Shown here: positions 12,467 to 31,559 of the stretch, piece after piece
Layout: each line of letters begins with the position of its first letter
Numbering within the stretch: the first letter of the stretch is position 1
IMG/VR virus record: IMGVR_UViG_3300042861_000806
Span: 1 to 38,270 of that record
Length of the DNA stretch: 38,270 nt
Strand: one strand, 5' to 3'
From: a virus
Position numbers and translations under genes: made by a program
The notes under the pieces: model-generated
Told to the model about the DNA's origin: nothing
The model's input: the letters and a program-made list of their open reading frames with translations, nothing else
Databases searched by the model: none

Positions 12467-12533
12467 GGCGCCCTAACACCCGGGTCGAGCTGACCCGCCA
12501 AAGGCGGGCAGCTCACCCGGCCCGTTAGGCGCC
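12467..12533 (+). other. attC-like recombination site 1
   Basis: Architecture on the + strand: R'' box ending CCTAAC (12471-12477), L'' arm with CGGGT, an extra C, GAGCTG, an extra A and CCCGCC. Then a loop AAA, L' arm GGCGGG-CAGCTC-ACCCG, a short spacer and R' box GTTAGGC (12524-12530). The two arms pair perfectly except for the two unpaired bases C and A, six bases apart, in L''. These match the extra-helical bases that give integron attC sites their strand selectivity. TTA at 12525-12527, directly after the cleavage G, is the stop codon of the minus-strand cassette gene. Confidence 0.78.
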
Positions 12534-12812
12534 ACGAATGCGCGCGGCGCACTCTGCCCGTGTCTTTGCGTACTCCGTCCAGTCCTCGGGCCGGTTGGCG
12601 TTCGTCGGGTCGCACAGCTTCGCGCACCGCTCGCGCTCTCCGTCCAGCAGCCGGCGCACGGTGCTCGCTCGGTAGAAGTGCGCGCCGTCCGGGCTGTCCG
12701 GGGCAACGCTTGGTAGCGTCATATCAGGCTCCGGCAGCGGGCCTAACCCCTCGCTCAAGGCCGACCCATCGCGGCGGGCGGCGTCGTGGTTCTCGGTAGC
12801 GTCAGTGGTCAT
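12525..12812 (-). CDS. Cassette 1 gene, ERERCA-type small protein
   Basis: 95 residues from ATG 12812, whose AGGAG site and start codon lie in the hairpin loop of attC-like site 2; ATG 12722 with its own GGAG is an alternative (65 residues). The start MTTDAT parallels MTTEAT of the cassette 3 gene. The C-terminal part (LLDGERERCAKLCD, TRAECAARIRGA) is a small helical family with conserved ERERCA and a terminal AARIR, common in phages and prophages, function unknown. Stop TAA is formed by the first three bases after the predicted attC 1 cleavage point. Confidence 0.7.
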   Translation of the reverse strand: MTTDATENHDAARRDGSALSEGLGPLPEPDMTLPSVAPDSPDGAHFYRASTVRRLLDGERERCAKLCDPTNANRPEDWTEYAKTRAECAARIRGA

Positions 12813-12860
12813 CGTTGCTCCTGTAGCGCCGCGCTGGGCGGCTTAGCTCGAACGTTATGC
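12741..12860 (+). other. attC-like recombination site 2
   Basis: R'' GCCTAAC (12741-12747), five-base spacer, L'' GCT-C-AAGGCCG-A-CCCA (12753-12768), L' TGGGCGGCTTAGC (12835-12847), R' GTTATGC (12854-12860). AAGCCG in L'' pairs with CGGCTT in L', with the C and A unpaired. The stem continues as CGCGGCG/CGCCGCG, leaving a loop of about 50 bases. That loop, read on the minus strand, holds the ribosome binding site and ATG of the cassette 1 gene. Confidence 0.74.
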
Positions 12861-12870
12861 AGCACCCAAT

Positions 12871-13194
12871 TCAGCGGCTCACGCGCACCAGCGCGTCGGG
12901 GTTGTCTCGGCACGCCTGCAAGTAACGCGCACACCACGGCACGAAGTGCTCCCACAAGCCCCAGCCGTTCGGGGCGTTGAACTGCTCGAACCGTGCCTTC
13001 TCGGTCACCAGCAGCGTCAGCCCGGAGGCGAGCGGCTCGATGATCTGCCGCGCGTGCGTGATGCCGTTTTCGTCGGGGCGCCACAGGCAGGCGTAGATGC
13101 CCGCCTCGCTGGCCATCTTGTTGAGGTTGTGCGTAATGTTCGCGGAATACACCTCGCCGCCATCCGCGTCGGTCAGGTAAACGTCTAAGCTCAT
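12871..13194 (-). CDS. Cassette 2 gene, widespread phage hypothetical family
   Basis: 107 residues, ATG 13194 with AGGAG nine bases upstream. The sequence (MSLDVYLTDADGGEVYSANI, THNLNKMASEAGIYACLWRP, FNAPNGWGLWEHFVPW, YLQACRDNPDALV) belongs to a family I recognise from many phages and bacterial genomes (VYSANITHNL, EAGIY, LWRP, NGWG) without an assigned function. No signal peptide or membrane helix. It fills the segment between attC-like sites 2 and 3. Its stop is 11 bases from the R' box of site 2, so it is the only cassette gene not ending in the core site. Confidence 0.78.
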   Translation of the reverse strand: MSLDVYLTDADGGEVYSANITHNLNKMASEAGIYACLWRPDENGITHARQIIEPLASGLTLLVTEKARFEQFNAPNGWGLWEHFVPWCARYLQACRDNPDALVRVSR

Positions 13195-13231
13195 GTCTTC
13201 GGCTCCTTGGTTTGTGCGCCACCAGGGCGCT

Positions 13232-13304
13232 GCATGACACTTCGCACAACCTGACCCCCTACGGCCTAGCGGCCTACGGTGGCAGGTCTCCTCGGGCGTT
13301 AGGC
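13232..13304 (+). other. attC-like recombination site 3 (degenerate R'')
   Basis: R'' GCATGAC (13232-13238, off the RYYYAAC consensus), five-base spacer, L'' GCA-C-AACCTG-A-CC (13244-13256), apical part with CCTACGGCC and GGCCTACGG, L' GGCAGGTCTC (13281-13290), R' GTTAGGC (13298-13304). AACCTG pairs with CAGGTC with one mismatch; again the unpaired C and A are six bases apart. TTA at 13299-13301 is the stop codon of the cassette 3 gene. This is the weakest of the five sites in its outer box. Confidence 0.62.
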
Positions 13305-13595
13305 CCTAATCGCCTGGGCAATCTGAAGCGCAGCGCTGCACCAGCCGTTGGCAAAGTCCTTGCCGTCGTTTGGCTGCCGCTGCGCCCCTTCGGCAATCTG
13401 CGCGCACCGCTCCCGCTCTGCCCGCATGATCCGGCGTATCTGCGCAAACTGCTCTGCCGTGGTCGTCGCCGCTTTCATGCGTTCCACCACGTCATACCAA
13501 AGGTCGTAGCTGTGTCCGTTCAGGCCGTAGCGCTCCGGGTCCAGGCCGAACCCTGCGTGCGAGCCGACCTCGCGCGGCGTTGCTTCTGTGGTCAT
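13299..13595 (-). CDS. Cassette 3 gene, ERERCA-type small protein
   Basis: 98 residues. The start ATG 13595 and its GGAG lie in the hairpin loop of attC-like site 4, and residues 7-17 are encoded by the R''/L'' arm of that site. The C-terminal region (MRAERERCAQIAE, WCSAALQIAQAIRA) is the same family as the cassette 1 protein (ERERCAKLCD, CAARIRGA). The middle (NGHSYDLWYDVVERMKAA) differs. Stop TAA comes from the first bases after the attC 3 cleavage point. Function unknown. Confidence 0.74.
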   Translation of the reverse strand: MTTEATPREVGSHAGFGLDPERYGLNGHSYDLWYDVVERMKAATTTAEQFAQIRRIMRAERERCAQIAEGAQRQPNDGKDFANGWCSAALQIAQAIRA

Positions 13596-13640
13596 CGTTG
13601 CTCTCCTGCCGCGCGTGGCGGCTCCACTTCGTCGTTAGGC
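13545..13640 (+). other. attC-like recombination site 4
   Basis: R'' GCCGAAC (13545-13551), five-base spacer, L'' GTG-C-GAGCCG-A-CC (13557-13569), then stem CGCGCGGC and, after a loop of about 29 bases, GCCGCGCG. L' GGCGGCTCCAC (13617-13627) and R' GTTAGGC (13634-13640) follow. GTGGAGCCGCC of one arm pairs completely with the other once the C and A are left out. The loop holds, on the minus strand, the ribosome binding site and ATG of the cassette 3 gene. TTA at 13635-13637 is the stop of the cassette 4 gene. Confidence 0.78.
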
Positions 13641-13967
13641 CACAAGTTCAGCCGGGTACACCGGCAAGCCTTCAGGGCGCATGCGAGGCTTGGTGTAGTC
13701 AATTGCACCGTTCTCTTGCACCCAGGTGTAGCTGCGCAGCCATTGCTGGCGCGCGTCTTTGTCGCGCACTTGCGGCGGGTCGGACAATTCGATTTCCTTC
13801 AGCACATCGTGGCTATGCATCGTCACCACTCGGCCGGCGCTGTCGCGGTCTTTCGGCATTCCGTGGATCACGTCGCGCAAGCGGTGCATGTAGTCCACCA
13901 ATGGGCTTTCGCCATGCACCTTCACCAGTCGCTGGTGTATCCAGATCAGTAGTTCTCGGTCAGTCAT
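13635..13967 (-). CDS. Cassette 4 gene, small phage hypothetical protein
   Basis: 110 residues from ATG 13967, with AGGAG eight bases upstream; GTG 13970 is an alternative. The N-terminus (TDRELLIWIHQRLVKVHGES, then DYMHRLRDVI) is shared with many small phage proteins. The rest (VTMHSHDVLKEIELSDPPQV, WLRSYTWVQENG) is unassigned. It starts 25 bases beyond the R'' of attC-like site 5 and ends with a TAA made by the core of site 4. Function unknown. Confidence 0.75.
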   Translation of the reverse strand: MTDRELLIWIHQRLVKVHGESPLVDYMHRLRDVIHGMPKDRDSAGRVVTMHSHDVLKEIELSDPPQVRDKDARQQWLRSYTWVQENGAIDYTKPRMRPEGLPVYPAELVA

Positions 13968-13991
13968 CACTCATGCTCCTGTGGCGTTGTG

Positions 13992-14066
13992 GCCTAACTG
14001 GTCGCTCAAGGGCGACCTCCTACGGGCCTGCGGCCCTACGTCGGCGCCTTAGCTCCAACGTTAAGC
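13992..14066 (+). other. attC-like recombination site 5 (right end of array)
   Basis: R'' GCCTAAC (13992-13998), spacer TGGTC, L'' GCT-C-AAGGGCG-A-CC (14004-14017), apical hairpin GGGCC-TGC-GGCCC, L' GGCGCCTTAGC (14043-14053), R' GTTAAGC (14060-14066). The CTCAAG and CTTAG boxes resemble the textbook L boxes of aadA-type attC sites. The R' box is directly followed by the -10 region of a leftward phage promoter. Confidence 0.78.
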
Positions 14067-14110
14067 ATCATCATCCGCACATCGCACCATTGCCATAGGT
14101 GGAAACCCTA
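14067..14110 (-). promoter_or_regulatory. Leftward promoter/operator, family copy 1
   Basis: Read on the minus strand: TAGGGTTTCCACC-TATGGCAA (14110-14090), then 16-17 bases and a -10 like GATGAT (14072-14067). The core AGG...CCT is an imperfect inverted repeat. The TAG of the element is the ninB stop codon. Transcription would start within or just left of the attC 5 core and read the cassette genes. Confidence 0.58.
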
Positions 14111-14479
14111 GCCCATTCGCTCGGCTGCCACCGCTTGCGCGAAGTCTAGAAACTCACCGAACGTCCGCTTGTCCATCTTCGACGTGCGCGAGCCCAGCAT
14201 CACGACGCCACCATGCAGCCCCATCGCAAGGCGCGCGGTCTCTTGGCGGAAAGCTGCGGTGAGAACGTCCTTCCATTCCTCGGGCGTCATCCGCACCATG
14301 GCCCCGTTAACTGGCCATTCCAGCCGCTCCGAAAACTCCGTCAGCAGCGCCCATAGCGCGGCGTTTTGGTCGAGGCTGCGGGTAGGTGGCTTGATGGTGA
14401 CGACGTAGTTCTCAGGGGCCTGAGAGATGGCGTCGCGGGCACGCTGGCGGGCTTCGGCGTGGGCTAGGCGGAAGATCAC
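14108..14479 (-). CDS. ninB: NinB-like recombination protein
   Basis: 123 residues, GTG start overlapping the previous stop (GTGA). It matches the NinB family (lambda NinB/Orf), a single-strand-DNA-binding recombination mediator: SLDQNAALWALLTEFSERLE, MTPEEWKDVLTAAFRQE, GVVMLGSRTSKMDKRTFGEF. Lambda Orf substitutes for RecFOR and helps load recombinase on SSB-coated DNA. Here it ends an apparent phage recombination operon after the annealing protein and SSB. Length agrees with the family. Confidence 0.92.
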   Translation of the reverse strand: MIFRLAHAEARQRARDAISQAPENYVVTIKPPTRSLDQNAALWALLTEFSERLEWPVNGAMVRMTPEEWKDVLTAAFRQETARLAMGLHGGVVMLGSRTSKMDKRTFGEFLDFAQAVAAERMG

Positions 14480-14679
14480 GTCATCACTCTCCGTAGCGTC
14501 TCGTTTAGCGCGTCAAGCTCAGACCACTTGCGCACGCTCCACAATCTCCGCTGGCCGTGCAGCCCGTTCACGCTTCCCCGGTGGCAGTCAGGGCACAGCG
14601 GGACCGATAGAAACCACTTTCCCTGTTCTAGCTCGTGGCACTCGCTCGGCCCTGGCGCATCGCACAGCACGCAAGCCAT
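14476..14679 (-). CDS. Ref/DUF968-like HNH-type zinc protein, N-terminus possibly frameshifted
   Basis: 67 residues from ATG 14679, which has a poor ribosome binding site. The motif CVLCDAPGPSECHELEQGKW, then PLCPDCHRGSVNGLHG (two CxxC pairs and HRG...LHG) matches Ref-like/DUF968 HNH-family proteins, RecA-dependent or structure-specific nucleases found beside ninB. Upstream, the same frame would encode AERRHIERIKA, typical of the family lead-in, but has no start codon. A GTG at about 14754 opens a frame reading SRNKPAPTAAERR that shifts out of frame at a 10-base tandem duplication (14700-14719). So the intact gene was probably about 91 residues from GTG. As written it is short or broken. Confidence 0.7.
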   Translation of the reverse strand: MACVLCDAPGPSECHELEQGKWFLSVPLCPDCHRGSVNGLHGQRRLWSVRKWSELDALNETLRRVMT

Positions 14680-21337: not shown

Positions 21338-21676
21338 ATGAGCGACGACACTGGCAAAGTGACAAAAAATGTCACATCCAAGCCGGCGCGCGGTGGATAC
21401 CGAGGCGGAAACCGTAAGGGCGTCCCGAACAAAGCTACGGCAGAGTTTCGGGAGACGATCCGCCAGCTACTCGAAGATAACGCCGCCAACGTGCAGGTTT
21501 GGCTTCAGCAGGTAGCCGACGGCGCCGGCTCAAAGCCGCCTGATCCAGCCCGCGCGCTAGACCTGCTGTCCAAGCTGGCCGAGTACGCCGCGCCTAAGCT
21601 GTCGCGTATGGAGCATGTAGGCGACGGTGGCGGCCCGGTGCGGATCGTTGCCGGTCCTGACGACCGCAGCCTGTGA
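21338..21676 (+). CDS. terS: Terminase small subunit-like protein
   Basis: 112 residues. The N-terminal ARGGYRGGNRKGVPNKATAE is the basic Gly/Arg-rich segment of DUF5681-type terminase small subunits, followed by helices (FRETIRQLLEDNAANVQVWL, DLLSKLAEYAAPKLSRMEHV) and a flexible end. It would recognise phage DNA and recruit the large subunit. A normal ribosome binding site is lacking (AGGA abuts the ATG). It overlaps terL by GTGA. Confidence 0.82.
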   Translation: MSDDTGKVTKNVTSKPARGGYRGGNRKGVPNKATAEFRETIRQLLEDNAANVQVWLQQVADGAGSKPPDPARALDLLSKLAEYAAPKLSRMEHVGDGGGPVRIVAGPDDRSL

Positions 21677-23007
21677 CGTTCGCCCTCACCGAGCGGCAGC
21701 AGCAGGCGCAGAGGGTGCTAGCCGGGCCGGCTACGCACTGCATGCTATTCGGTGGCAGCCGCAGCGGTAAGACGTTCCTGCTTACCCGTAACGTGGTGAT
21801 GCGGGCACTAAAGGCGCCGCAGAGCCGGCATGCGATCTTCCGCTTCCGATACAACCACCTCCGGGCGAGCGTGATTCTGGACACGTTCCCGAAGGTGATG
21901 CGTACCGCATACCCGGGCGTCGAGTATCAGGTACACCAGCAGGACGGATACGCCAGCCTGCCCGGGGGCTCTCAGATATGGTTTGCCGGCCTGGACGACA
22001 AAGACCGCACGGAGAAGATTCTCGGTCAGGAATTCGCCACGCTCTACTTCAACGAGTGCAGCCAGATCCCGCTGACCAGCGTTGACACGGCGCTTACCCG
22101 CCTAGCTCAGAAGGCCACCCAGCAGGTCGAGGGCGCAGAGCCGCAGCCGCTCCGACTCCGTGCGTACTACGACTGCAATCCGCCGTCTAAGACGCACTGG
22201 ACCTATCGGCGCTTTGTCGAAAAGCGCGACCCGGAAACCCGGCTGGGCCTGCCCCGGCCGGAGGACTACGAGGCGTTCAGCATCAACCCGGGCGACAACT
22301 CAGCGAACCTGAGCCCCGAGTACCTGCGCATGCTGGAGTCACTGCCGGCCAGGATGAGGGCGCGATTCCTTGAGGGGCGATTCAGCGACGCGAACCCGAA
22401 CGCCCTGTTTCCTGAGGAGCATATTGACCGCTGGCGCGTGCTAGATGGCCGCGTGCCTGACCTAGTGCGGGTCGTGGTCGCGGTTGACCCGAGCGGGGCG
22501 GATGACGAGGCATCGTCGGACAACGACGCTATCGGCATTGTCGTGGTGGGTCTAGGCACCGACGGCGCGTGCTACGTCCTTGAGGACTTGACGGTAAAGG
22601 CTGGCCCGGCGACATGGGGCAAGGTGGCGACTACCGCCTTTGACCGGCACAAAGCCGACTGCGTGGTGGCCGAAACCAACTTCGGCGGGGCGATGGTGCG
22701 CCAGGTGATCGAGACGGCTAGGCCCCGGACGCCGTTCCGTGCCGTGACCGCCAGCCGAGGTAAGGCTGTGCGCGCCGAGCCCTGTTCCGCCCTGTACGAG
22801 CAGGGCAAGGTAAGGCACGTCGGCATGTTCCCAGAGCTTGAGGACGAGCTATCGGGCTTCAGCACGTCAGGATTCACCGGCTCACGCAGCCCGAACAGGG
22901 CCGACGCGCTTATCTGGGGCCTGACTGCGCTATTCCCGGCCGTGACCGCACCGGCCAAGGTGGTAGCCGCCGCGCCGCTGCCTATGGCGCACCATTGGAG
23001 CCGGTAG
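21673..23007 (+). CDS. terL: Terminase large subunit
   Basis: 444 residues from GTG 21673. ATPase: Walker A GGSRSGKT (residues 27-34), Walker B LYFNE (124-128), a coupling-like segment YYDCNPPS near 165. Nuclease domain: VVAVDPSG with Asp272, VVAETNFGG with Glu334, and a late RADALIWG motif supplying the third acidic residue. It powers DNA packaging and cuts concatemers. Length and motif spacing are normal. A headful mechanism would fit the P22-like capsid set and the circular map, but this is inferred. Confidence 0.94.
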   Translation: MTFALTERQQQAQRVLAGPATHCMLFGGSRSGKTFLLTRNVVMRALKAPQSRHAIFRFRYNHLRASVILDTFPKVMRTAYPGVEYQVHQQDGYASLPGGSQIWFAGLDDKDRTEKILGQEFATLYFNECSQIPLTSVDTALTRLAQKATQQVEGAEPQPLRLRAYYDCNPPSKTHWTYRRFVEKRDPETRLGLPRPEDYEAFSINPGDNSANLSPEYLRMLESLPARMRARFLEGRFSDANPNALFPEEHIDRWRVLDGRVPDLVRVVVAVDPSGADDEASSDNDAIGIVVVGLGTDGACYVLEDLTVKAGPATWGKVATTAFDRHKADCVVAETNFGGAMVRQVIETARPRTPFRAVTASRGKAVRAEPCSALYEQGKVRHVGMFPELEDELSGFSTSGFTGSRSPNRADALIWGLTALFPAVTAPAKVVAAAPLPMAHHWSR

Positions 23008-23043: not shown

Positions 23044-25389
23044 ATGGCCCGCGAATCCATCGAGCAGCGACTCATCCGCATTCACGCCGAGGCGATGCGG
23101 GAATTCGACGCCATCCAGTCCGCCGTGCGCGATGAGCGGCTGCAGTGCTTGCAGGATCGGAGGTTCTACAGCTTGGCCGGGGCGCAGTGGGAAGGCCCGC
23201 TCGGTGCGCAGTTCGAGAATAAGCCGAAGATGGAGGTCAACAAAATTGCCCTCGCGGTTCAGCGCATCTTTTCCGAGTATCGCGCAAACCGGGTAACGGT
23301 TGACTTCGTGTCCAAGGAAGGCGCCGAGTACGATTCTCTGGCCGATGCGTGCGACGACCTGTATAGGGCCGATGAGCAGGATTCGAGCGCCGAGGAGGCT
23401 TACGACAACGCTTTCGAGGAGTCCGTCGGCGGCGGTATCGGCGCGTGGCGCTTGCGAGCGGTGTACGAGAGCGAAGAGGACGACGAGGACGAGCGGCAGC
23501 GCATCAAGATTGAGCCCATCTTCGACGCCGATAGCTCGGTGTTCTTCGACCTGCAGGCGAAGCGCCAAGACAAGGGCGACGCCAAGCGGTGCTTCGTGCT
23601 TACGAGCATGACGCACGATGCCTACGTCGAGGCATGGGGCGACGACCCGTCTAGCTGGCCGAAGGAAATCCACCAGCACGAGTTCGATTGGGCGACGCCG
23701 GATGTCGTCTACGTGGCCGAGTATTACCGCGTCGAGGAGCGGTCAGAGACTGTCCGCATCTATCAGGGCCTGGACGGCGAGGAAGAGCGGTACCGCGAGA
23801 GCGAGCTAGACGACGACACCATCGCCCAGCTTGAGGCCATTGGCTCGCGTCAGGTGGGCGAAAAGCGCATCAAGGTGCGCAAGGTGCGCAAATACATCTT
23901 GAGCGGGTCCAAGGTGCTGGAGGACTGCGGATACGTCGCTGGTCGGCATATCCCGATCATCGTCACGTATGGCAAGCGGTGGTTCGTGGACAACATCGAG
24001 AGGTGTATGGGCCATGTCAGGCTCGCAAAGGACGCCCAGCGCTTGGCGAACATGCAGCGGTCCAAGCTCGCGGAAATCTCGGCGCTATCCAGCGTGGAAA
24101 AGCCAATCCTGCTGCCAGAGCAGATCGCTGGCCACCAGATGATGTGGGCCGAAGATAACGTCAAGCAGTACCCGTATCTGCTCATCAACCCGCTGACCGG
24201 CCCTGACGGATCACAGCAGCCCGGCGGGCCTGTTGCCTACACCAAAAGCCCGCAAATCCCGCCCGCGATGGCCGCCCTGCTGCAGATCGTGGAGCAGGAT
24301 ATCAAGGATGTACTCGGCAATCAGGAGCAGGGCGACAAGATCGTTGCCAATGTCAGCGGTAAGGCCGTTGAGATGGTGCAGCAGCGGCTGGACATGCAGA
24401 CGTACATCTACATGAGCAACTTCGCCAAAGCCATCCGCCGATGCGGCGAGGTGTGGCTAGGCATGGCCCGCGAGCTTTACGTCGAGCCCGGCCGAAAGAT
24501 GAAGGGCATCGGCGCGCAGGGTCAGGCCAGCACTGTCGAACTCATGCGCCCCATCGTTGGCGAAGAGGGCGAGATTGAATACGAGAATGACCTGTCCGAA
24601 GCTCAGTACGACGTCGCGGTGGAAGTCGGCCCAAGCAGCAGCAGCAAACGCGCGGCTACAGTCAGGGCACTGACGCAGATGATGGCGCTGTCGCAAGACC
24701 CGGAGACGCAGAAGATTCTGCAGGCTGCGGCGCTGATGAACATGGAAGGCCAAGGATTGCAGGACATCAACGAGCACTTCCGCAAACAGCTTGTGATGCT
24801 GGGCGTACTCAAGCCCACGGACGATGAAGCAGAGGCCATGCAGCAGGCCCAAGCGCAGCCTGACCCGAACGCGGAACTGATGCGCGCCGCTGCCACCGAA
24901 GCGCTGGCAAAGGCTGAGAAGGCGCAGTCCGATGCCCGCCTGTCGGACGCGAAGGCGGCTCAGACTCTGAGCGAAATCGGCCAGGGTCCGGAACAGCAGG
25001 CAATGCAACCCATGCAGCCCATGCAGCAGGTCATGCCGCCTGAGCCTCATCCGCTCACCGAAAAGGAACTGCTCGACCTTGAGGCGCAGAGGCTCGAAAA
25101 CGACGCAAAGCGGCTAAAGCTGGAGGCGGAATTGCTCAAGATCGAGCAAATGCGCGCTCCTCCGCCGCCTGCTCCGGAGCCTGTCCCGCCTGCGATTGAC
25201 GAGGCCCAGCTAAAGGAACTTCAGGCCGGAATTTCCACGCTAGCGCAAGCGGTACAAGGTATCATTTCGACGGTATCTGAGATGTCCGCCGAACAAAAGC
25301 GCACCGCTGACAGGGCGTTGCAAGTGCTTGAGCGGCCGAAGCGCATCGTGCGCGAAAAGGGCCGCATCACTCGCATCGAGGTTGAGTGA
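23044..25389 (+). CDS. Portal protein, P22 gp1 type
   Basis: 781 residues. The fold-typical features are an acidic helical N-terminus, conserved segments such as EVNKIALAVQRIFSEYRANR, ITVTYGKRW-like (IPIIVTYGKRWFVDNIERCM), LGNQEQGDKIVANVSGKAVE and AKAIRRCGEVWLGMARELYV. They match the P22-type portal family, which forms the dodecameric DNA channel and docks terminase and tail factors. The C-terminal 200 residues are a long Ala/Gln/Glu-rich coiled coil with a Pro-rich break (PPPPAPEPVPPA), reminiscent of the P22 barrel. RBS AGGGA ten bases upstream. It is slightly longer than P22 gp1 (725). Confidence 0.93.
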   Translation: MARESIEQRLIRIHAEAMREFDAIQSAVRDERLQCLQDRRFYSLAGAQWEGPLGAQFENKPKMEVNKIALAVQRIFSEYRANRVTVDFVSKEGAEYDSLADACDDLYRADEQDSSAEEAYDNAFEESVGGGIGAWRLRAVYESEEDDEDERQRIKIEPIFDADSSVFFDLQAKRQDKGDAKRCFVLTSMTHDAYVEAWGDDPSSWPKEIHQHEFDWATPDVVYVAEYYRVEERSETVRIYQGLDGEEERYRESELDDDTIAQLEAIGSRQVGEKRIKVRKVRKYILSGSKVLEDCGYVAGRHIPIIVTYGKRWFVDNIERCMGHVRLAKDAQRLANMQRSKLAEISALSSVEKPILLPEQIAGHQMMWAEDNVKQYPYLLINPLTGPDGSQQPGGPVAYTKSPQIPPAMAALLQIVEQDIKDVLGNQEQGDKIVANVSGKAVEMVQQRLDMQTYIYMSNFAKAIRRCGEVWLGMARELYVEPGRKMKGIGAQGQASTVELMRPIVGEEGEIEYENDLSEAQYDVAVEVGPSSSSKRAATVRALTQMMALSQDPETQKILQAAALMNMEGQGLQDINEHFRKQLVMLGVLKPTDDEAEAMQQAQAQPDPNAELMRAAATEALAKAEKAQSDARLSDAKAAQTLSEIGQGPEQQAMQPMQPMQQVMPPEPHPLTEKELLDLEAQRLENDAKRLKLEAELLKIEQMRAPPPPAPEPVPPAIDEAQLKELQAGISTLAQAVQGIISTVSEMSAEQKRTADRALQVLERPKRIVREKGRITRIEVE

Positions 25390-26996
25390 TGCCGTTCCGC
25401 ATCGTTGACAGTGCGACAAGATCGGCTTGTGCCGCTGCTGCGAATCAGCAGGCACAGCTAGAGGCGCTCATCGCCCCGTGGGCCGGTGCGCCTGTCACTG
25501 CGCGGCTCTACACGACAGGTGGGACGCTGCTGCGGACGATCACACTGCCTGCCCTGACAGTAGCCGGTAGCCCGCCAAGCATCACGCTAGGCTCGCACAC
25601 TGGCGACACCGCTGTGAGCACTGGGACGCCGGGGATGTGGGTGTTCAGCAACGGCGCGACGGAAATTTTCCGCATGGACGCCGGTTTGACTGGGGCGCTG
25701 ATTAACCACGCTGGCGCGGTTAAGACGGGCTGCACGCCTACGCTGAATGGCGTTGTCATTACTGGAAATCAGGCGCTGCCATCTGGCGGATTGCCGCCCG
25801 ACGTGCGCACCGCGCTGATGGGCGACAGCCTCACGACGCACCTGCTCGACTACAACTGGAGCCCGATCTTCTGGGGCAACGGTCTCTTGGGTGGCGCTCT
25901 CAAGGTGGTGGCGAACGCCGGCATCAGCGGCGACACGGTGGGCGACATGCTGGCTCGTGTGAGCAATGCCTACACGGCGCCCACGCCCGGCCTGGGCGGC
26001 CTGTCTCCGCTGGGCTGGATCGTGTTCCGCGGCGGGACCAACAACGCCCGCAACGGCACGCCCATCTCGTCGCTGCAGAGCACCTACACCAGCCTGCTCA
26101 ACGACCTGGCGACAAGGGCCGAAAAGGTTGTCATCCTGTCGGTGCCTCCCATCGGCCCGAGCGAGCCCAGCTTTGCAACGAAGAACGCGCTGACCATCGA
26201 ATACAACACCTGGCTCGCCAGCTTTGCGGCAGGCAACCCGACCAAGTTCACGTTCGTCGATGACAGTGCTGGATTGCGTGATGTAGACGGATCTCAACTC
26301 GCGGGCTATTTCAACGCTGACGGCATCCACAACGATGGCCGCGCAACCTATGTGGAGGGCGTCGCGCTGGCTTCTGGCCTGTCGTCGCTGATTGGTGGTT
26401 ATGCATATCCGTCTCCCGTAAGCGCAAGCGCAGCCGATGTGTACCCCGCGCAGCCGCAGTGGGTTCCGAACCACATCATGGCCGGCGCAGGGCCAGTAGC
26501 CACTGGCTGGAGCATCGGCGCTATTGGAGGTGGGTTTACCGTAACGCCAAGTTTGGTTGCCGCTGGTGGGTCCGATCCAAATCAGACGCCGTGGCAGCGC
26601 GTAACCCCAACAGAAGTTGGCTATACAGGCAGCGGCGAGGCCATCGTCATCACCAGCAGTCTCAGCGGGCGCAGCGTGACGACGACGGACCCCGCCGCCT
26701 GGGACATCATCGTCGAGCTGCGCTTCAACAACTTCGACACGCGCCCTTTCAGGTGGGCGCGTCTGTGGGTCATGAGCGTGGCCGACAGCCAGCCCATCAC
26801 CTATGACCTAGACCTCAAGATGGGCGGCGAGGCCAGCATCACGCACGGCAGTGTCGTGCTGCGCTTTGCGATGCCGCGCAAGACCTACAACGCCGAGCCG
26901 AGCGGCGTCTCGTTGCGCTGGGAGTGGGCCACGCGCAGCGCGTTCAGTGGGGTCATGGGCTCGTTCGACTTCCGTTGCCTAACGGTGAGGGGCTGA
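25389..26996 (+). CDS. SGNH/GDSL-type hydrolase, virion-associated
   Basis: 535 residues from ATG 25389 (TGATG overlap with the portal stop); GTG 25386 is an alternative. Counted from the GTG, SGNH blocks are clear: block I ALMGDSLT with nucleophile Ser148, block II NAGISGDT with Gly around 182, block III RGGTNNARN around 216-220, block V ADGIHNDG with Asp312 and His315. The first 130 residues are a beta-rich domain (ITLPALTVAGSPPSITLGSH) and the last 180 another beta-rich region. Such esterases deacetylate surface polysaccharides. Placement between portal and scaffold is unusual for an enzyme and suggests a head- or neck-attached decoration. Confidence 0.88.
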   Translation: MPFRIVDSATRSACAAAANQQAQLEALIAPWAGAPVTARLYTTGGTLLRTITLPALTVAGSPPSITLGSHTGDTAVSTGTPGMWVFSNGATEIFRMDAGLTGALINHAGAVKTGCTPTLNGVVITGNQALPSGGLPPDVRTALMGDSLTTHLLDYNWSPIFWGNGLLGGALKVVANAGISGDTVGDMLARVSNAYTAPTPGLGGLSPLGWIVFRGGTNNARNGTPISSLQSTYTSLLNDLATRAEKVVILSVPPIGPSEPSFATKNALTIEYNTWLASFAAGNPTKFTFVDDSAGLRDVDGSQLAGYFNADGIHNDGRATYVEGVALASGLSSLIGGYAYPSPVSASAADVYPAQPQWVPNHIMAGAGPVATGWSIGAIGGGFTVTPSLVAAGGSDPNQTPWQRVTPTEVGYTGSGEAIVITSSLSGRSVTTTDPAAWDIIVELRFNNFDTRPFRWARLWVMSVADSQPITYDLDLKMGGEASITHGSVVLRFAMPRKTYNAEPSGVSLRWEWATRSAFSGVMGSFDFRCLTVRG

Positions 26997-30284: not shown

Positions 30285-31559
30285 ATGGCTAACTCGTTTT
30301 CCAAGGAAGAGCGCATCGCTTTCGAGAATCTGCTCGAAGGCTTCCAAGATGCGCTGGTGCTGTCTCGCAACGTCGCGGTGTTCGCCACCGATCAGACGAT
30401 GATGGAGCGCACCAACAACATCATTTGGCGTCCGCAGCCCTACATCTCGGTGTCCTACAGCGGCACTGACATGACGGCGAACTTCGACGACTACACCCAG
30501 CTTACCGTGCCGGCCACCATCGGCTTCGGGCGCTCGGTGCCGTGGGTCATGACCGCGACTGAACTGCGCGACTCTCTGCAAGAGGGCCGGCTCGGTGACG
30601 CTGCGAAGCAAAAGCTCGCCAGCGACATCAACGTGTCGGTGATGAACGTCGCCGCCCTGCAGGGAACGATCTTCGTGAAGCGCACCGCCGCTGCCTCGGG
30701 CTTCGACGACGTGGCAGAAATCGAAGCGGCCATGAACGAGCGTGGCGTTCAGCAGGACAGCCGATACCTGGCGCTTTCGACCCGCGACTACAACGGCATG
30801 GCGTCTGACCTGGCGAAGAGCACCCGCAGCTTCGGCAACGAGATTAGCGACAGCGCCCTGCGCCGTGCGTTCGTGGGGCAGATTGCCTCGTTCGAGACGT
30901 ACAAGATGGACTACGGTCTGCGCAAGGCTGCGGCTGCTGGTGGCGCTGGCGTGCAAATGAGCACGCTCACCGCTGCGGGTAACTACTGGGTTCCGAAGGC
31001 GACCACGGTTTCCGCTACCGGCGAAACGTCCAACGTGGATAACCGTTACCAGACCATCACGGTCAACGGTACGGCCAACATCCAGCCGGGCGATGCCTTC
31101 ACCATCGGCAACGTGTTCCAAGTGCACCTGATCACGAAGCAGAGCACGGGCATCCTGAAGCCGTTCCGAGTCGTGGCAGTGCCGAGCGGCACGACCCTCG
31201 TCATCAGCCCGCCGATCATCTCCAACCAGGGCGGATCGGATGCTGAAGCGCAGTACCAAAACTGCGTCGTGACGACCCAGAGCGCAACGGCGCCCATCAC
31301 GTTCCTGAACACCGCTGCGGGCTTCATGAACCCCTTCTGGCACAAGGACGCCATCGAGTTGCTGCCGGGCCGCTATGCGGTGCCGAGCGATGCTGGCGCC
31401 GCTGTGATGCGTGCTTCGACGGACCAGGGCATTGAACTGGTGATGACGAAGCAGTACGACATCAACACGATGCGCACGAAGTACCGGCTTGACACGCTCT
31501 ACGGCGTGGTGAACAAGCAGCCGGAAATGACCGGCATCGTGATGTTCGCGCAGCCCTGA
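30285..31559 (+). CDS. Major capsid (coat) protein, P22 gp5 type
   Basis: 424 residues, close to the 430 of P22 gp5. Features of the P22-coat family: an N-terminal helix (ERIAFENLLEGFQDALVLSR), TMMERTNNIIWRPQPYISVS, ATELRDSLQEGRLGDAAKQK, an inserted beta-rich region around residues 215-330 corresponding to the I-domain, and the C-terminal end with YDINTMRTKYRLDTLYGVVN. It forms the icosahedral HK97-fold shell. ATG follows AAGGGG in a structured leader. Followed at 18 bases by the decoration-like gene. Confidence 0.93.
   Translation: MANSFSKEERIAFENLLEGFQDALVLSRNVAVFATDQTMMERTNNIIWRPQPYISVSYSGTDMTANFDDYTQLTVPATIGFGRSVPWVMTATELRDSLQEGRLGDAAKQKLASDINVSVMNVAALQGTIFVKRTAAASGFDDVAEIEAAMNERGVQQDSRYLALSTRDYNGMASDLAKSTRSFGNEISDSALRRAFVGQIASFETYKMDYGLRKAAAAGGAGVQMSTLTAAGNYWVPKATTVSATGETSNVDNRYQTITVNGTANIQPGDAFTIGNVFQVHLITKQSTGILKPFRVVAVPSGTTLVISPPIISNQGGSDAEAQYQNCVVTTQSATAPITFLNTAAGFMNPFWHKDAIELLPGRYAVPSDAGAAVMRASTDQGIELVMTKQYDINTMRTKYRLDTLYGVVNKQPEMTGIVMFAQP

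Follow-up and report, generated by a model that had tools for sequence, protein, structure and literature searches.

Does a P22-like phage carry, and trade, gene cassettes in the way integrons do? Bacteria trade antibiotic-resistance genes by swappable gene units of this kind, and an earlier note, made from the letters of the sequence, described five integron-type recombination sites (attC) in a phage genome and took them to bound small accessory genes that the phage has captured, or exchanges, through the integron integrase (IntI) of the host. The window, that is, the whole 38,270-base stretch that we analysed, is a virus record of a P22-like phage, and the reported array lies at 12.47–14.07 kb. 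We regard it as very probable, from the sequence of the locus and of its relatives, that the array is a CALIN (two or more attC sites, no intI nearby) of a P22-like phage and that it represents a type of integron specific to phages.

The attC sites and cassettes of the window

The array consists of five attC sites and four cassettes. A NinB/Orf gene lies directly upstream, co-directional with the array genes, and forms the constant flank. These features, and the structural genes that identify the phage, are as follows (bit scores are those of the covariance model R1 described below).

12471–12530, + strand: attC site 1 (12467 in the earlier note), 27.9 bits; the array end that would face attI/intI in complete phage integrons
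12525–12854, + strand: cassette A, from the TT of the site 1 R′ box to the G of the site 2 R′ box
12525–12812, − strand: cassette A gene, 95 aa, oriented by codon usage; start and RBS inside attC site 2, stop TAA in the site 1 R′ box
12741–12860, + strand: attC site 2, 43.8 bits
12855–13298, + strand: cassette B
12871–13194, − strand: cassette B gene, 107 aa, phrog_4019
13232–13304, + strand: attC site 3, 27.0 bits
13299–13634, + strand: cassette C
13299–13595, − strand: cassette C gene, 98 aa; its start lies within attC site 4 and its TAA stop in the site 3 R′ box
13545–13640, + strand: attC site 4, 36.4 bits
13635–14060, + strand: cassette D
13635–13970, − strand: cassette D gene, 111 aa; two distant relatives only, in viral contigs
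13992–14066, + strand: attC site 5, 36.0 bits; the NinB-side array end
14108–14479, − strand: NinB/Orf recombination-mediator gene (phrog_72, 2.9e-28; Pfam NinB, 2e-28)
21673–23007: large terminase (TerL)
23044–25389: portal
30285–31559: major head protein, P22-type coat

Since a scan of the window against Rfam at gathering thresholds gave no match, we modelled attC in this analysis. Covariance model R1 was built from 29 bacterial attC sites, taken from genome contigs (mainly of Xanthomonadales and Burkholderiales) with none from phage loci, and was run over the window unfiltered. Its five highest-ranking hits are the reported sites and no others, all on the + strand and at 27.0–43.8 bits; next come site 1 on the other strand (22.8 bits, the site being near-symmetric) and then noise at 9.1 bits. 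An independent scan combining a PWM with pairing returns the same five (scores 30.0–49.8) and nothing else at 10 or above. In the controls for this second scan, 60 dinucleotide shuffles of the whole window produced one match at or above the threshold of 22, with a maximum of 25.1, and 744 kb of reversed sequence reached 17.0 at most. The places and the common orientation given in the earlier note are thus confirmed by both scans.

The same note had described an unpaired C and A, six to seven bases apart, in every site. The folds of sites 1 and 4 show this feature directly, and site 1, with its bulged C and A, is the strongest hairpin of the array (DNA fold z −6.6); for sites 2, 3 and 5 taken alone, however, the minimum-energy structure falls short of the full attC fold. 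Site 3 is weak at 27.0 bits, and its R″ box reads GCATGAC. Across 137 distinct phage attC sites, 95.9% of the structure cells are paired and 224 cells show changes on both sides, compared with 45 for shuffles and 12–37 with slid partners, a covariation whose size leans upward because the alignment was fitted to the structure. Taking the scans and the stems together, we judge the five reported sites to be real attC sites.

Each cassette extends from the TT of one R′ box to the G of the next (G↓TTRRRY, with the arrow at the boundary). All four genes are encoded on the − strand and so run against the attC top strand (RRRR). Cassettes A, C and D each take their stop codon, TAA, from the R′ box (GCCTAAC read on the − strand), and the spacers of sites 2 and 4 hold both RBS and ATG (AGGAGCAACGATGACC and AGGAGAGCAACGATGACC). 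Over 12 bases (13634–13645 with 13987–13998) the two ends of cassette D pair without a mismatch, as would mark a circularising unit. The product of the cassette A gene has no PHROG or Pfam match. The cassette B protein is predicted with high confidence by AlphaFold (pLDDT 97.3); its predicted structure has no significant PDB match and its relatives are uncharacterised viral proteins only. The cassette B gene is also a cassette in four other arrays (L468–L471), where it has other neighbours, and it is found outside arrays in other phages as well.

In agreement with the earlier note, no integrase is encoded in the window: PF00589, the tyrosine recombinase family, has no match in this record, which may be incomplete, and the phage attI motif described below was not found at the array. 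The array is therefore a CALIN by the definition given above (five attC sites, no intI nearby), and lacks both the tyrosine recombinase and the phage attI motif of a complete integron; nor do its genes run along the attC top strand, away from attI, as in a canonical one. With neither intI nor a recognisable attI, the array of the window might now be inert. A blastn search of site 5 against annotated phages returned only 18-base chance matches, and our scan detected no attC in MW202867 or MW202475, the two annotated phages that are nearest.

Exchange of cassettes among related arrays

To compare the locus with others, we used viral contigs from metagenome assemblies, whose structural genes were looked at in a few. 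A strict 24-base attC pattern recovered only five viral loci and was replaced by a looser one; the set of array-bearing viral contigs so obtained is selected on attC and is a lower bound.

The NinB gene of the window is 93–95% identical to that of three viral contigs, L084–L086. These match the window up to 14059 (L084 and L085, 91% identity) or 14054 (L086, 90%), so that homology stops at the site 5 R box (blastn break 14054–14059); beyond it they hold wholly different cassettes, again with attC sites. The earlier note had held that identical genes in fixed order in all related phages would speak against exchange, and the opposite is seen.

Elsewhere, identical or near-identical cassettes recur in different settings. 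One of 460 bp is 100% identical between L103 and L183, and one of 384 bp is 99.5% identical between L106 and L220; in both pairs the neighbours differ and the break falls at G↓TT. Two adjacent cassettes, of 290 and 926 bp, are common to L171 and L214 as a block, again with different neighbours and with breaks at G↓TTRRRY, and a 416-bp cassette occurs twice in one contig (L156/L215). These exchanged cassettes of 99.5–100% identity are seen in relatives and not in the window. The unit of exchange in the relatives is thus the cassette with its G↓TTRRRY boundary, and what is seen at the window's own locus is turnover of the array. Because the cassettes of its relatives differ, and because identical cassettes with exact G↓TTRRRY breaks occur elsewhere, we read the window locus as a shuffled cassette array; the claim that its sites bound cassettes in an array exchanging small genes is upheld.

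Further signs of exchange come from the ends of contigs and of cassettes. The L085 and L086 contigs terminate exactly at '...GGCCTAACG' and the L470 contig exactly at '...GCCTAACGT'; seven such ends, on five contigs, are listed against 0.87 expected, and with many locus ends not being contig ends, the contig ends at the attC core or attI are only suggestive of cassette exchange. The two ends of one phage cassette are complementary outside the R box at 0.50 of flank positions, whereas the value between both sides of a single attC site is 0.31; the same measure in bacterial integrons gives 0.57 for cassette ends and 0.33 for attC sides. We had considered cassette-end complementarity as a means of deciding attC polarity and dropped it, the ends being symmetric; polarity rests on the covariance model, the crossover points and intI/attI.

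Gene inversion and phage-encoded IntI

The orientation of the cassette genes relative to attC was absent from the earlier note. ORF length alone is ambiguous in GC-rich phage DNA (138 of 288 cases in phage arrays), and we therefore oriented the genes by codon usage. Among the matches listed, phage arrays hold 236 cassette genes antisense to attC and 12 in the sense orientation, seven of the latter on a single contig, 2834908352_000001. Bacterial arrays comprise 80 canonical and 8 inverted genes by codon usage, and 154 canonical and 5 inverted by ORF length. Of the 236 inverted phage cassettes, 87 have a stop codon that falls on their first base. By our scan the annotated phage MW202573, with attC on the − strand and genes on the + strand, is inverted too; Tetrasphaera phage TJE1 has the canonical orientation.

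The inversion concerns the genes only. In the 22 loci with intI and two or more attC sites (L355 left out), 45 genes are inverted, one is canonical and four are undecided, and 98 of 100 attC sites detected near viral intI lie on the strand opposite intI, which is the normal integron polarity. The layout of intI, attI and attC is the usual one, and only the genes are turned round, so that they read towards attI and intI. The window's own place in this phage lineage would rest on the inversion and on the cassette B gene that it has in common with other arrays.

A second observation absent from the earlier note is that related arrays lie beside phage-encoded IntI. A tyrosine recombinase is present in 10 of the 50 array-bearing records among the matches listed, and three of those adjoining inverted arrays pass the TIGR02249 cut-off of 265 bits (L276 with 425, L277 with 390 and the partial L282 with 269); the nearest solved structure to the L277 protein is IntI4. 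A search for viral IntI found 118 loci, of which 80 were kept. Upstream of the intI start, most loci of the phage clade have an attI-like sequence that ends in GAATTnAnG↓TTRGGC (n also standing for one to four bases). L326 and L332 agree at 300 of 300 positions on the intI side of attI and at 43 of 150 on the cassette side, with the break at G↓TT. Many viral contigs with such arrays have an IntI gene of their own next to them, together with a conserved attI.

In a tree of 149 IntI sequences, 46 viral ones form a single clade (support 99) with no bacterial member, and a mixture-model tree of 74 sequences recovers 32 of the phage clade with 99.7 SH-aLRT; the exclusivity of the clade is relative to the 70 bacterial sequences sampled in the trees. 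L355 has a canonical array and a bacterial-type IntI. The exception is L353, where the array is inverted and IntI groups with bacterial IntI. Compared with 399 Burkholderiales genomes, one phage IntI used as the query has a single match at E < 1e-120, at 60% identity. Host-type IntI is itself common: 115 of 300 Burkholderiales genomes have one above the cut-off. The host integrase proposed in the earlier note as the route of exchange is accordingly one of two possible sources, the other being the phage-encoded IntI that sits, with attI, beside many related arrays.

Rival readings, mechanism and known systems

Could the locus instead be a fragment of a bacterial integron, captured once and now decaying without movement? 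Chromosomal CALINs often are relics, there is no intI in the window and site 3 is weak. However, relatives that are 90–91% identical in the flank hold wholly different arrays, cassettes of identical sequence turn up beside differing neighbours, broken exactly at G↓TT, the genes are inverted, unlike those of bacterial arrays, and the attC stems covary; this reading is strongly disfavoured, and we give it only a very small probability. Movement might also be the work of homologous recombination (by phage annealing proteins, for example) between conserved attC arms, without IntI. The arms of different attC sites do share short identity, and the gene adjoining the array is a NinB/Orf recombination mediator; yet the breaks fall at the single point G↓TT and are not spread along the shared arm, the sequence on the intI side is preserved where that on the cassette side differs, and IntI has been kept as a distinct phage clade, which makes such an origin exceedingly improbable.

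It is scarcely conceivable that what lies between these small phage genes is a set of transcription terminators, or of translational hairpins, resembling attC by convergence, for a model made from bacterial attC only finds them at 27–44 bits on one strand, and terminators would not yield exact cassette boundaries, complementary cassette ends or the attI–intI module of the relatives. Nevertheless, the hairpins lie between co-directional genes, some contain an RBS and start codon, and attC sites are thought to hold weak terminators (Qi et al., PMC9892861), and the attC hairpins could have a secondary regulatory role. Finally, faulty assembly of metagenomes, or bacterial integrons wrongly classed as viral, might have produced the variation. 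The relatives do come from metagenome assemblies, several contigs end inside an attC core or at the attI sequence G↓TTAGG, and 2834908352_000001 resembles a canonical integron beside phage-like genes. We find this hardly credible as an account of the whole. Genes for TerL, portal and P22-type coat are present in the window, one contig (G055) combines terminase and portal with an inverted array and intI, another (G052) has terminase and portal, and an assembly error would not invert the genes in nearly all arrays, nor in the annotated phage MW202573, which is inverted likewise.

In the phage-specific integron that we favour, the attC bottom strands (the − strand of the window) would become single-stranded during phage replication and then fold. 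Integron integrase would cut at G↓TTRRRY and whole cassettes would be swapped between arrays (attC × attC), or, in phages with attI, would also enter attI. Having no tyrosine recombinase, the window phage would need IntI in trans, either from a chromosomal integron of the host or from a co-infecting or co-resident phage with an IntI of the phage clade. The genes would be read from the phage operon, on the NinB side, through the array towards the position that attI and intI occupy in complete members, each cassette bringing its own RBS, sometimes a start codon inside attC and often a stop TAA from the R′ box.

As for the cargo, most of the 125 phage cassette proteins have no recognisable family. 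The recognisable ones include methyltransferases of the N6/N4 (four), Dam (two), MT-A70 and D12 types, Lar restriction alleviation, an RNA ligase, a 5′-deoxynucleotidase-like protein and Gp157, and two Acb2/Tad1 hairpins, in the L195 and L162 arrays. Several of these proteins are known for counter-defence. If the cargo is indeed one of phage accessory genes, counter-defence included, the array would amount to an exchangeable arsenal of benefit to the phage; for the window this suggestion draws on the cargo of related arrays, a minority of which is recognisable.

More broadly, we think it likely that phages own a separate branch of integrons, in which IntI forms a clade of its own, attI is conserved and the cassettes of the pool have flipped genes that are expressed from the phage operon and not from Pc. 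Placed in a host integron, a phage cassette would be antisense to Pc, and conversely, so the flip would keep the phage and bacterial pools apart. Counter-defence genes would be traded among unrelated phages, mirroring the anti-phage defence genes stocked by host integrons, and phages without intI, such as that of the window, would be users of IntI in trans. If this is true, site-specific cassette exchange, thought to be bacterial, has a long-lived phage branch in which the direction of reading separates gene pools, and it would provide a concrete mechanism for the fast turnover of small phage accessory genes. Since attC marks every cassette, the arrays also offer a means of listing candidate counter-defence genes, with methyltransferases, Acb2/Tad1 and Lar already named.

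Taken as a whole, the earlier interpretation is partly supported; its remark that such arrays in phages are rare or undescribed does not hold. They are easily found in IMG/VR, and Qi et al. 2023 (PMC9892861) described 17 phage CALINs and reported that five of six tested phage attC sites recombined with IntI1. Their CALINs resemble ours in being attC clusters without an integrase and in carrying small uncharacterised genes and DNA methyltransferases, and one of their phages, MW202573, is inverted like the window. The main text of that paper calls the cassette arrangement of TJE1 and PH101 typical of bacterial arrays, and makes no mention of inversion, of a clade of phage IntI, of attI in phages or of cassettes exchanged between phages (PMC9892861). 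We found no further description of phage integrons, inverted cassettes or viral integron integrases in the literature covered, which excludes most subscription papers and all bioRxiv preprints. The inverted, phage-specific lineage appears to be new, whereas phage CALINs themselves had been described before (PMC9892861).

The chromosomal integrons of Xanthomonadales and Burkholderiales share with the phage arrays the attC sequence type, the R″-L″-L′-R′ layout, complementary cassette ends and cassettes of about 470 bp; they differ in that their genes run with attC (80 forward, 8 reverse) and their IntI falls outside the phage clade. In the 'reverse' integron of Treponema (PMC3607928, PMC4909258), intI and the cassette genes are co-directional, as in the phage type. 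There, however, intI is transcribed towards attI, whereas in the IntI-bearing phages attI has its normal place at the 5′ side of intI, immediately before the start codon, and the flip is that of the cassette genes, which run towards attI. Vibrio p16, the P1 isolate and Shewanella M16-3 (PMC9892861) likewise carry intI, attI and an array on a phage genome; those are described as captured integrons of host type or class 1, while the arrays described here have cassettes with inverted genes and, where they encode an integrase, one that mostly belongs to a separate phage clade.

Apparent cassette exchange at attI

The viral loci L326 (IMG/VR 3300037043_000397) and L332 (IMG/VR 3300038679_000135) are the same on the intI-attI side and differ in their first cassettes, and sequence comparison places the break at G|TT, so that the pair looks like a natural insertion event at attI. 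Three further contigs (L309, L330 and L331) end at the attI G|TTAGG(C), which suggests that the first cassette is variable within the sampled population.

Cassette cargo of other arrays, and two genes of the window

Two cassettes in other viral arrays encode hairpin proteins of the Acb2/Tad1 type, a family of sponges for nucleotides that act as defence signals:

L195, 4498-4782: Acb2/Tad1-type hairpin protein (E ~2e-15)
L162, 9000-9281: Acb2/Tad1-type hairpin protein (E ~2e-15)

Two genes of the window are as follows:

14476-14679: small protein related to phrog_1588, upstream of NinB
25386-26996: lipase-like protein (phrog_6102), immediately preceded by the portal gene

The small protein weakly matches one phage HNH endonuclease family. 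A lipase-like protein resembling that of the window is also found in another phage genome, G031.

Other IntI groups and attC-bearing contigs

Deeper in the IntI tree lie additional groups of viruses only, L357-L373 and L366-L380, in which few attC sites were detected with a model trained on Xanthomonadales and Burkholderiales sites; these groups may use a different attC type. Phage-type attC sites also occur on a 6,986-base contig binned into a Nitrospira MAG (L242), which may be a phage contig. Finally, contig 2834908352_000001 (loci L305, L200 and L207) carries a canonical integron adjoined by phage-like genes: its long attC array is non-inverted and its IntI is of the bacterial type.
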